From Bacillota bacterium (GTDB lineage: Bacteria; Bacillota; Negativicutes; Sporomusales; CTSoil-080), in assembly GCA_017889625.1 (NCBI GenBank), contig JAGGAD010000005.1, forward strand, positions 1-64,000: 64,000 nucleotides of DNA. Reading direction: 5' to 3'. The notes under the pieces are model-generated. The model was not told where the DNA came from. It ran no database searches and saw only the letters and a program-made list of their open reading frames with translations. The position numbers and the translations under genes were made by a program. This document shows positions 24,343-55,905 of this stretch, one piece after another; position 1 is the first letter of the stretch, and each line of letters opens with the position of its first letter.

Positions 24343-24600
24343 ATCCCGCCCCTGATATATATCAGGGGCGGGATACTATACCCGCGGTACCACCCTGCTT
24401 GCTTGCAGCAAGCCAACTCTTAATCAGGTACGGGAGTAAATATCCGATACCCTAGCCCATGTTAACGGAGGCGTTCCGGCACTGTCTACTTGCCAAAGCT
24501 TTCAACATGCTGCTCACGGGTGTATTTCAGTCAGCGCATTTACCCGGTCTCACCACCCCCAGGCTCTCTAAAAAATGCCTCCAGCTTACTTCTCCACGTT
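24343..24600 (-). ncRNA. T-box leader of aroF-tyrA, probable tyrosine specifier
   Basis: Reading the minus strand, Stem I contains AAGTA, AGAGAG and GGTGGTGAGACC and then GAAATACACCCGTGAG, in which UAC (Tyr) followed by A occupies the specifier position. Next comes the T-box sequence GGGTGGTACCGCGGG (within 24381-24400), which pairs with the tRNA acceptor end; UGGU fits a discriminator A, as in tRNA-Tyr. A strong terminator follows (24343-24374, 14-bp arms, then Ts). An uncharged tRNA would stabilise the antiterminator and allow aroF-tyrA transcription. Confidence 0.92.
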
Positions 24601-24615
24601 CATTGCATTTAAATC

Positions 24616-53049: not shown

Positions 53050-53069
53050 AGCAGGCCATTTGGCCTGCT
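53050..53069 (-). terminator. Rho-independent terminator of the SASP gene
   Basis: 8-bp GC-rich stem (53050-53057 and 53062-53069) with a 4-nt loop, overlapping the SASP stop codon and followed by TTTTCC on the minus strand. Confidence 0.8.
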
Positions 53070-53334
53070 AAGCTTTATTATTTGCATCGTACGCCGCAGT
53101 AAGAGTTTTTCCCGTCGGAGCCGTTGATGCAGCAGTACCAGCAAAATTCTGTTCCTGAGCCTGAATCATCTTCCGAACCATCTGACCGCCTACCCGTCCA
53201 TTATCGGCGGAAGTCAAAGCACCTTTGTAAGTGTTTTGGTAATTCGCAAGGCCGAGTTCAGACGCAGTCTCGATCTTCAACCGATCAAGAGCCTGCTGGG
53301 CAGCGGGATTCACAGTTTTACGACTCCTCGACAT
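53068..53334 (-). CDS. Alpha/beta-type small acid-soluble spore protein
   Basis: An 88-residue DNA-binding protein that coats and protects spore DNA and is degraded on germination. It contains the two family signatures, [15 protein letters not shown] with the germination protease site and [10 protein letters not shown] sigma-G-type promoter lies just upstream. This gene is direct evidence that the organism makes endospores. An Ala/Thr-rich tail after residue 65 is longer than in B. subtilis SASPs. Confidence 0.95.
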
Positions 53335-53374
53335 AATGCAAACCTCCCGTTAATAAATTTTTTGAACCCGTTTA

Positions 53375-53403
53375 TAGCATGGCTTAAACTAATCATTACA
53401 TAC
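53375..53403 (-). promoter_or_regulatory. Sigma-G promoter of the SASP gene
   Basis: On the minus strand GTATG (53403-53399), 17 bp and CATGCTA (53381-53375) match the sigma-G -35 GHATR and -10 CATNHTA boxes. It lies 40 bp upstream of the SASP start. The context of a SASP gene makes the match convincing. Confidence 0.8.
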
Positions 53404-53423
53404 CTTGAAATAACTGGGCAAAT

Positions 53424-53455
53424 AAAAAAGGCGGCCAAACTCAGCCGCCTTTTTT
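53424..53455 (-). terminator. Rho-independent terminator of the porin gene
   Basis: 12-bp GC-rich perfect stem (53424-53435 and 53444-53455) with A/T tracts, directly after the porin stop codon. Confidence 0.9.
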
Positions 53456-53457
53456 AT

Positions 53458-54336
53458 TTAGAATATAACCGTAAGTTCGGCCTTTGCTCGATTCAGCGCA
53501 GTAGCATCACTATTTTTATCAGTAAAGTCTTTAAAGACATTAATATTTACATTATCGGCAAATTTGTAATTAGCTTCAACCCTGAACCCCTTAGAATCAT
53601 TGTAAGCACTATCAGTACTCCAGCCACCATCAACAGCTTTATCCTCAATGTTACGGTAAGAAAGAGCGTAATTGAACTCCCCTTTATGGGCGGCTTCGCC
53701 GACAGTCGCTTTAACCAAGAAACCATTGGCATTATCAGTGTTGTTTTTTACATAATTACCAGAAAGTACCATGTTGTTATTTAATCGCCGATCAGCATTT
53801 AAGGCCAAATATTTGACGTCATCTTTTTGCAAATAGCCAACACTAAAATCTACCACATCACCCTTGGTTTTTAAGTTAGCCGCAGTAACATCGTCAGTTC
53901 CAGAACGGCCAAGAAATGCCTCAAACCCAATATTTTGACTATCCGTCGCTAATGACATACCCTGTACATTAACATCTGCAAGTATTCCATTGCCTACAAA
54001 TAACCCCTGGCGACCAGCCTTAACATCAACCGCCCCCATTTTGGTTCCCAGGTAAAGTTGATCCATAGTCGCCGTAACACCTTGAGAAGCGCCTGTAGCA
54101 AATTGTGAAACGCCACTTTGCTCATCAAGTCCTTGAATTCGTGCATGAGCGTAGAAACCGTCACCAATTTCAGAATCAGCATTCAAACGAAAACGAGTAT
54201 CAGTGGTTGTATGGGCCCCTTCATCCTTCTGCGTTAAAATTCGAGCCTCACCAGTAAACGTCGGAGAAGCAAAAGTAGTCGTGGTGGAAACGGTCAGCGC
54301 AGCCAAAATCGCGGCAACAAGCAATTTCTTGTTCAT
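53458..54336 (-). CDS. Outer-membrane beta-barrel porin
   Basis: A 292-residue secreted protein. Signal peptide at 1-23 (MNKKLLVAAILAALT, then TFAS); the mature part alternates polar and hydrophobic residues and is predicted to be almost all beta strands. It ends in AELTVIF, and a C-terminal Phe is the sorting signal recognised by the BAM machinery. It resembles putative porins of Negativicutes. This is the strongest evidence here for an outer membrane. A GGAGG site lies 7 bp upstream, and the transcript begins with a folded leader. Confidence 0.88.
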   Translation of the reverse strand: MNKKLLVAAILAALTVSTTTTFASPTFTGEARILTQKDEGAHTTTDTRFRLNADSEIGDGFYAHARIQGLDEQSGVSQFATGASQGVTATMDQLYLGTKMGAVDVKAGRQGLFVGNGILADVNVQGMSLATDSQNIGFEAFLGRSGTDDVTAANLKTKGDVVDFSVGYLQKDDVKYLALNADRRLNNNMVLSGNYVKNNTDNANGFLVKATVGEAAHKGEFNYALSYRNIEDKAVDGGWSTDSAYNDSKGFRVEANYKFADNVNINVFKDFTDKNSDATALNRAKAELTVIF

Positions 54337-54380
54337 GCTTTGTCCTCCTCAGATTTTTGTGGTTATTTGTTCTTTTCCCA

Positions 54381-54514
54381 CAACTATAAAATCCGTTGAG
54401 CGCTATGAGTATCCACGTTTCCTCACCATGCTCGCCAATATTTATAGTTGCTAACTAAGAACTCACCAACAGTATAACTACTGCTTTAATTTTCATCTAA
54501 CCTAAATGAGTTCT
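54381..54514 (-). ncRNA. Structured 5-prime leader of the porin gene
   Basis: The porin mRNA appears to start near 54515 and to carry two folded domains. The proximal domain has a 10-bp perfect outer stem (54381-54390 and 54441-54450), inside which GAGC/GCTC (54398-54401, 54430-54433) and TGAG/CTCA (54406-54409, 54422-54425) form an inner hairpin. The distal domain has AGAACTCA/TGAGTTCT (54458-54465, 54507-54514) around a CAGTA/TACTG hairpin (54470-54483). It matches no riboswitch class that I know. Control of porin expression is inferred only from position. Confidence 0.5.
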
Positions 54515-54630
54515 CGTTATAGTATTTCAATATAGTTTACATAACCCCTTTATATTTTGTGATAATTACTGCATGAAAATATTGTTTTATTATTTTTGTT
54601 TTAGACAATCAGGAATAATAAAACAAAAAA

Positions 54631-54653
54631 AGAATCCGGCTAAGCCGGATTCT
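54631..54653 (-). terminator. Rho-independent terminator of lysC
   Basis: 11-bp perfect stem (54631-54641 and 54643-54653) around a single base, followed by TTTTTTTG on the minus strand. Confidence 0.85.
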
Positions 54654-54678
54654 AATATTATATCATTGCTACTAAATT

Positions 54679-55905
54679 TTAAGCTTCGTCACTAAAAAAA
54701 CGACTATGAATTACTTTAACCGCATCCTCCGCCTGATTTGCCTGAATAAGGCAAGAAATACTAATTTCCGACGTGCTGATAACTTCAATATTAATGCCGG
54801 CATCAGACAGCGCACCAAACATGGTTGCCGCTATACCAGGGCTCCCGAACATCCCGGCCCCGACTACTGAAACCTTGGCAACATTTTCCTCAATGACTAC
54901 ACCAAGAATATTTAGCTCTTTTCCCACTTTTTCGGCAATAGCGCGAGCTTCAACAACATCTGCCTTGGAAATAGTAAACACCATATCAATGATACTTTTA
55001 TCAACATTACGAATACTTTGTACAATCATATCCACATCAATATTTGCTTTAGCTAATGCCGCAAAGATTTTGTAGGCAATGCCTGGGCTGTCAGGCACAC
55101 CCAGTATCGCTATTTTGGCTACATTAGTATCATGAGTTACGCCTCTAATAACAAACTCTTTTTCTTCCACAGTATATACCTCCCTGATAATAGTACCCGG
55201 TTGTTGACTAAAAGTAGATCTGACATGAATCGGCACACCATAACGTTTACCCATTTCAACTGACCGCGGCTGCATAACTACAGCCCCTAACCTTGCCATT
55301 TCCAACATCTCGTTATAAGTAATTTCCTTCATTCTCTTAGCAGTACTTACCGCTCGTGGATCAGCTGAATATACTCCATCCACGTCAGTATAAATTTCAC
55401 ATACATCCGCCTTCATCGCACCAGCCAATGCTACCGCAGTAGTATCTGAGCCACCGCGTCCCAGAGTAGTAATATCACCATCTTCTGTCATTCCTTGAAA
55501 ACCGGCCACAACCACGATTTTCCCCTTATCCAGCTCCGACAATACTCTTGATGGTTCAATATGAGTAATATTCGCTTTATTAAAAGCGGTATTAGTGGAT
55601 ACTCCTGCTTGAAACCCCGTCATGGATATAGCAGGATATCCAAGCTTGGTAAACGCCATGGCTAAAAGAGCTATCGAAACCTGCTCGCCAGTAGATAACA
55701 ACATATCCATCTCCCGGCCAGTTGTAACATTGGTCATTAATTTCGCCATCTCAACCAGATGATCTGTAGTATCACCCATCGCTGATACTACAACAACAAC
55801 TTTGTCCTCCGACCGCTTATCGTTTATTACCCGCTGGGCAACAGCCATAATCTTTTCCGGAGTGGCGACCGAACTGCCGCCAAACTTCTTTACCATTAGC
55901 GTCAT
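54679..55905 (-). CDS. lysC: Aspartate kinase
   Basis: A 408-residue monofunctional enzyme that phosphorylates aspartate, feeding lysine, diaminopimelate, threonine and methionine synthesis. Catalytic domain (1-250) with KFGGSSVATPEK and TLGRGGSDTTAVALA, then two ACT domains (about 262-400) that bind the feedback inhibitor. Diaminopimelate is needed for peptidoglycan, and dipicolinate for spores. The ATG follows GGAGG by 6 bp. The 139-bp upstream gap is too short for a lysine riboswitch. Confidence 0.95.
   Translation of the reverse strand: MTLMVKKFGGSSVATPEKIMAVAQRVINDKRSEDKVVVVVSAMGDTTDHLVEMAKLMTNVTTGREMDMLLSTGEQVSIALLAMAFTKLGYPAISMTGFQAGVSTNTAFNKANITHIEPSRVLSELDKGKIVVVAGFQGMTEDGDITTLGRGGSDTTAVALAGAMKADVCEIYTDVDGVYSADPRAVSTAKRMKEITYNEMLEMARLGAVVMQPRSVEMGKRYGVPIHVRSTFSQQPGTIIREVYTVEEKEFVIRGVTHDTNVAKIAILGVPDSPGIAYKIFAALAKANIDVDMIVQSIRNVDKSIIDMVFTISKADVVEARAIAEKVGKELNILGVVIEENVAKVSVVGAGMFGSPGIAATMFGALSDAGINIEVISTSEISISCLIQANQAEDAVKVIHSRFFSDEA

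Follow-up and report, generated by a model that had tools for sequence, protein, structure and literature searches.

A conserved hairpin in the leaders of outer-membrane protein genes of diderm Firmicutes, probably a shared control tag for building the outer membrane

Introduction

What is the role of the long, folded mRNA leader that precedes a porin gene in the Bacillota bacterium analysed here, and which part of it, if any, is common to other genes? The question arises from a stretch of 64,000 nucleotides (the window) and touches on the coordination of outer-membrane protein (OMP) synthesis, of which, to our knowledge, little is known outside the Proteobacteria. A preliminary description of this DNA had taken the leader for a functional structure of no known class, and had offered as possible roles a small-RNA target, a thermosensor, a riboswitch or a stabilising structure.

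Results and Discussion

The porin gene and its leader

The porin gene encodes a barrel protein of 292 residues with a signal peptide, for which a Pfam/NCBIfam scan gave no family over the cut-off. An AlphaFold model built with 12 relatives (pLDDT 84.9) has 16 strands, and its best match in the PDB is OmpM1 of Veillonella parvula (8bys, E 4.9e-15); on this predicted structure we class the product as a porin of the OmpM type that lacks the SLH stalk. The gene is followed by one for a SASP spore protein, which suggests a spore-forming diderm Firmicute as the probable host. The gene order lysC, porin, SASP (window 53068-55905, minus strand) is the same in a congener (L002).

The leader lies on the minus strand, between the terminator of the aspartate kinase gene (54631-54653) and the porin ATG (54336), and the region holds these features:

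54458 to 54514, minus strand: second unit, an 8-bp stem with an inner hairpin at 54468-54485 (fold, pair probabilities)
54381 to 54450, minus strand: whole stem-loop, with a 10-bp basal stem and, above it, irregular middle stems topped by the apical hairpin (fold, flank shuffles, pair probabilities)
54406 to 54425, minus strand: conserved apical hairpin TGAG[GAAACGTGGATA]CTCA, loop 54410-54421 (model R1; class, family and phylum searches; covariation)
54344 to 54350, minus strand: Shine-Dalgarno GAGGAGG (sequence)
53458 to 54336, minus strand: gene of the 292-aa porin, a 16-strand barrel of OmpM type lacking an SLH domain (ORF, AlphaFold model, PDB match)

The perfect 10-bp stem that had been described around an inner hairpin is present as placed (54441-54450 with 54381-54390, CAACUAUAAA/UUUAUAGUUG on the minus strand, 100% Watson-Crick), and so is the second unit, in which 54507-54514 pairs with 54458-54465 (AGAACUCA/UGAGUUCU, minus strand) around the hairpin at 54468-54485. 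The minimum free energy of 54381-54514 is -37.2, against -24.9 +/- 3.0 for shuffled sequences (z -4.1, with none of 200 shuffles as low), and the whole leader, 54340-54520, reaches z -5.0 against shuffles. In longer sequence context the pair probabilities are 0.79-0.98 for the basal stem and 1.00 for the apical stem, and 0.00-0.32 for the 8-bp unit, varying with the 5' end chosen, since its 5' strand has a rival pairing with the Shine-Dalgarno. For the stem enclosing the apical hairpin, shuffling of the flanks in the window leader gave z -3.8. The leader had also been placed between promoter and ribosome-binding site; the latter is there as GAGGAGG, and a sigma-70 promoter scan gave no match on the minus strand at the leader. 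Upstream of the leader, at 54535-54543 (minus strand), the window carries TATGTAAAC, a candidate promoter part or regulator site; related leaders hold 20 exact copies of it ahead of their hairpins, mostly at a distance of about 65-75 nt.

In Rfam 15 the leader element has no match, either at gathering or at permissive thresholds, in the window or at 28 related loci. The sole Rfam match above its gathering score in the window is a T-box leader (24361-24612, minus strand, 115 bits). A match to sroD at 54627-54696 (minus strand), which scores 34.3 bits against a cut-off of 50 and spans the lysC end together with the terminator, was set aside as probably due to chance.

A short hairpin with a covarying stem

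The first recurrence came from a DNA search of three genomes of the family: 21 exact bases of the leader reappeared before an SLH-domain OMP (SLH-OMP) gene of the same genome, and the congener's orthologous porin also shared the stretch in its leader. What recurs is the apical hairpin, with the consensus NNAG[GAAACNNGGANA]CUNN, that is, a nearly invariant loop of 12 nt on a covarying stem. Our alignment A1 has 70 rows, 3 of them chosen and 67 drawn at random out of 201 distinct hairpins; the searches or filters that supplied all rows hold most of the loop and part of the stem constant, so the loop conservation is partly produced by the way in which the sequences were fetched. Model R1, made from 70 rows that include the window hairpin, finds in the window 54403-54428 with 36.7 bits (E 2.6e-7), and the second-best match there has an E-value of 0.73.

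The preliminary description had named covariation in homologous leaders as the check to be made, and the stem passes it. At the outer-stem positions left free by the searches, 133 of 166 cells are paired (83 distinct sequences), compared with 85.2 +/- 4.5 when the arms are shuffled; the set of 140 matches used here includes 11 without a closing pair, which were kept in the count. The 70-row alignment contains 85 cells with double changes, compared with 42 +/- 5 by shuffling, a number reached in none of 500 shuffles, and pairing drops from 79% to at most 52% when the stem partner is slid along. Constrained folds also point to a stem enclosing the hairpin, with a mean z of -2.35 against mononucleotide-shuffled flanks in 220 deduplicated leaders, a set that still held the phage locus L031 described below and that came down to 218 leaders once the chance loci were removed. 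As related genomes and paralogues are to some degree treated as independent in these statistics, the p-values of this study are too small.

A fixed loop on basal stems whose sequence differs freely between leaders is the pattern to be expected of a loop that is recognised. In the window, the 10-bp stem is this variable basal stem, below the conserved hairpin. There is strong support for the earlier view that the structured leader is functional, the meaningful part being the short apical hairpin and not the whole fold. In the Sporomusa-like OmpM leaders (L004, L055, L056, L059 and L060), extra common blocks flank the conserved hairpin, with ACCUGC...GCAGG forming a hairpin upstream of it and GGUG...CACC another one downstream, and these leaders may contain a larger structured RNA.

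Covariation also bears on the idea that the conserved letters encode a leader peptide, MRKRGYS, which was prompted by ATG AGG AAA CGT GGA TAC TCA in three leaders. The window does have the frame ATG GTG AGG AAA CGT GGA TAC TCA TAG, with similar ones in L004 and L002, but the changes elsewhere are non-synonymous (e.g. AAACATGGACAC, AAACAAGGCAAC), the motif has no conserved start codon ahead of it and the stem covaries. The non-synonymous variants and the covariation refute this candidate, whose chance of being right we consider negligible.

Distribution across genomes

Allowing up to three mismatches, the hairpin was found in 166 of 300 genomes of the class, where a control with the reversed pattern rarely matched. 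Fixing the loop and freeing the stem gave matches in 59 of 90 class genomes and in 25 of the 28 genomes of one family, f30. Overall, the hairpin ranges over most families of the Negativicutes, other diderm Firmicutes and one MAG labelled Armatimonadetes (L164), which lies outside the Bacillota and has two hairpins, each before an SLH-OMP gene. A strict pattern, TGAGGAAACNNGGANACTCA, matched 30 of 398 genomes in a sample of the phylum, 22 of these 30 being outside the class.

Families f22 and f10 gave almost no matches to the strict pattern. Their OmpM leaders carry diverged loops (e.g. GAAACAAGGCAA, GAAACTAGGCACA), with GGC for GGA or one extra base, and model R1 places a match at the leader position in 36 of 50 of these loci, with E-values up to 10 and many of the matches individually weak. 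The genomes behind these loci (L248-L297) mostly do not have csrA, and f30, which also does not have it, keeps GGA in the loop. Together, f22 and f10 versus f30 provide a natural test set for a putative binding factor.

Matches in a Prevotella MAG (L079/L339), a Bryobacterales MAG (L126/L328/L341) and a Bacteroidetes MAG (L167/L340), where no OMP gene was recognised downstream, were set aside as due to chance. The 18-mer GAGGAAACGTGGATACTC is also found in one phage sequence present on two contigs (L031, 1071-1088; L032, 5883-5900), probably by chance.

The hairpin precedes outer-membrane protein genes and tracks the outer membrane

All seven exact matches to AGGRAACNNGGANACT in the genome of the window stand before OMP genes, namely six SLH-OMP genes and the window porin. 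There are five further matches with one mismatch, and inspection of the downstream sequence for four of them showed one (C94) before an SLH-OMP gene and three without a visible gene of this kind. Exact matches lie before OMP genes in 9 of 10 cases in one relative (G001) and in 3 of 4 in another (G002), where the remaining one is at a contig end. Automatic sorting of the genes that follow 178 distinct matches gave 127 of SLH type, 27 for other proteins with a signal peptide, 13 'other' and 11 with none; several of the 13, among them the window gene, are clearly porins, and several of the 11 lie at contig ends.

In the phylum sample, the hairpin is followed at each of the 30 loci listed, after 16-151 nt, by an ORF for an envelope protein with signal peptide; by eye these proteins are SLH or barrel-like. 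We scanned ten of them, picked mostly for showing no SLH domain: one had SLH, one exceeded a porin cut-off, four matched porin, OMP or SlpA-barrel families weakly and below the cut-off, one gave nothing but a weak match of no relevance, and the other three gave no match. Five more were scanned, giving SLH in four and porin in one.

As a marker of the outer membrane we used Omp85 (PF01103), which was detected in 102 of the 398 genomes of the phylum sample, in 101 of them over the cut-off. All 30 genomes with the hairpin have Omp85, and none of the 296 genomes without Omp85 has the hairpin (hypergeometric 5e-20, counting genomes as independent). The hairpin tracks the outer membrane. The strict pattern is absent from 72 of the 102 Omp85 genomes; it misses variant stems and variant loops.

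Possible mechanisms

The Shine-Dalgarno and terminator analyses were made after removal of the phage and MAG chance loci. In 211 leaders the Shine-Dalgarno is unpaired at 0.41, compared with 0.46 for shuffled flanks (p 0.004), and is thus slightly more masked than expected. In the window the value is 0.22, and in the orthologues L002 and L131 it is 0.69 and 0.67; in the window GAGGAGG can pair with the second unit's 5' strand, a pairing that both orthologues have lost, and a Shine-Dalgarno switch was rejected. As this pairing is not kept and the masking excess across the set is only slight, we treat the second 8-bp unit as a local feature. None of 218 leaders has a terminator-like site, which led us to reject attenuation as well.

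These results weigh on the roles first offered for the leader. A thermosensor is disfavoured, as there is no conserved melting stem over the Shine-Dalgarno of the ROSE or FourU type (set mean 0.41). A riboswitch would require an aptamer for a small ligand, which in this case would be the published 'SLH' candidate with a cell-wall signal such as c-di-GMP; the distribution and gene association agree with that candidate and the window leader can refold with its Shine-Dalgarno, but the conserved core amounts to a 20-nt hairpin, and neither Shine-Dalgarno masking nor terminators are kept across the members as an expression platform would be. We regard this possibility as disfavoured and distinctly improbable.

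The distance between the hairpin and the ATG has a median of 70 nt (5th-95th percentile 39-112 nt), a loose spacing that does not point to one mechanism. Strong promoter-like pairs were found in 36 of 214 leaders, compared with a shuffle rate of 6%, and 22 of these 36 sit 20-60 nt upstream of the hairpin, which suggests from the sequence that the hairpin is probably near the 5' end of the transcript. Such a position would suit a sequence-tuned stabiliser, in which a 5'-end stem-loop guards abundant OMP mRNAs from decay and the loop is fixed for tertiary stability, not for binding a particular partner. OmpM-type porins are abundant proteins, and the missing terminators and the uncovered Shine-Dalgarno fit this proposal equally; a stabiliser, however, would not need a near-invariant loop of 12 nt across class and phylum. 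Among the first suggestions the stabilising structure therefore stays as a rival, if an unlikely one, together with the small-RNA target, to which we assign a rather low probability. The latter supposes that a conserved small RNA pairs with the loop, which is exposed, and OMP mRNAs are classical targets of small RNAs in Proteobacteria. Against it, the free loop letters vary between paralogues in 30 of the 38 genomes with at least two hairpins, which argues against pairing with one small RNA, and the seven exact loop matches in the genome of the window all precede OMP genes, leaving no separate full-length antisense copy, although a seed of 6-8 nt would escape such a search.

The loop letters themselves suggest another partner, since ACRUGGANAC with GGA in a hairpin loop resembles the CsrA/RsmE consensus. 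In alignment A1 the GGA is exposed in the loop, and 163 of 300 class genomes carry csrA, that of the window among them. However, none of the f30 genomes is csrA-positive, and two further genomes without csrA (G031 and G054) have four strict-pattern hairpins each. CsrA was dropped as a required partner after the csrA search, and a CsrA/RsmA binding site seems to us very unlikely.

In our view, the best explanation is that the leader carries a cis-acting RNA element of diderm-Firmicute OMP mRNAs, which acts as a post-transcriptional tag for a putative trans-acting factor, a proposal to which we give about an even chance. It builds on what the computation establishes, namely the conserved hairpin, its covarying stem, its place in the leaders of OmpM and porin genes and the way in which it tracks the outer membrane. 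The element would consist of an irregular, variable basal stem and a cap hairpin with the nearly invariant 12-nt loop; a conserved trans-acting factor, for which an RNA-binding protein distinct from CsrA is the most likely candidate, would recognise this loop and would bind near the 5' end, upstream of a Shine-Dalgarno left uncovered. Binding may set the stability or the translation of the OMP mRNAs jointly, up or down, and OMP output could thereby be matched to envelope assembly. The changed loops of f22 and f10 count against this explanation, and recognition would have to tolerate or follow them; the loose spacing to the start codon and the 72 Omp85 genomes without the strict pattern also weigh against it.

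Outlook on outer-membrane evolution

On a wider and more speculative reading, which we find plausible while leaning slightly against it, the hairpin would be the mark of an ancient post-transcriptional outer-membrane regulon that predates the split of the diderm Firmicutes and that Armatimonadota and Synergistota perhaps have in common with them, would be read by a putative RNA-binding factor as a general coordinator of OMP synthesis beyond the Proteobacteria, and would have been lost along with the outer membrane. In the phylum sample most genomes have no Omp85 and the hairpin was found only in those that do, which makes it a marker with which to follow the diderm Firmicutes through their history. 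Its 20 nt, common to porin and OmpM leaders, probably act as a joint control tag in outer-membrane construction and offer a bait for finding the regulator.

Comparison with known systems

The verdict of no known class, which holds for Rfam 15, does not extend to the literature, where the element is probably the published, uncharacterised 'SLH motif'. The accessible text of Stav et al. 2019 (PMC6429828) describes 80 examples of this motif, taken there as a candidate riboswitch, from Synergistaceae, Clostridia and Negativicutes; genes with SLH domains follow about 60% of them and genes of unknown function the rest, and its authors, referring to S-layers, suggest a cell-wall signal such as c-di-GMP. 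As far as that text goes, both are cis-regulatory candidates of Negativicutes and other Firmicutes. The gene association likewise agrees, as 127 of our 178 distinct matches precede SLH-type ORFs and others precede porin-like ORFs, so that SLH-OMPs are joined here by non-SLH porins, of which the window gene is one. Our matches also include Negativicutes and other Bacillota, with no Synergistaceae among those listed (at least 117 stretches, contig scan). In contrast to the 80 examples described there, we find a short hairpin in most Negativicutes families and outer-membrane proteins as the products of the genes, and, on the scale of the hairpin compared here, no aptamer-like conserved core beyond it. 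The window hairpin is thus a probable new member of the SLH motif, matched to it by distribution and genes, and with its role read differently; if the two are the same element, the published S-layer riboswitch candidate would be recast as an outer-membrane element. Our literature search found no follow-up on the SLH motif, the main text of two later ncRNA surveys being without 'SLH', and no study of OmpM leaders, including in the accessible text of PMC10628300.

With CsrA/RsmA sites the hairpin shares a GGA in the loop of an mRNA-leader hairpin, and differs from them in being kept without csrA and in lying usually well upstream of the Shine-Dalgarno. The iron-responsive element and similar elements are stem-loops read by proteins. 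The present element differs from the iron-responsive element in being bacterial, in its unrelated sequence and in a reader protein that is only putative, but resembles it in the way it would work, as an irregular and variable stem under a fixed loop, common to mRNAs of one function.
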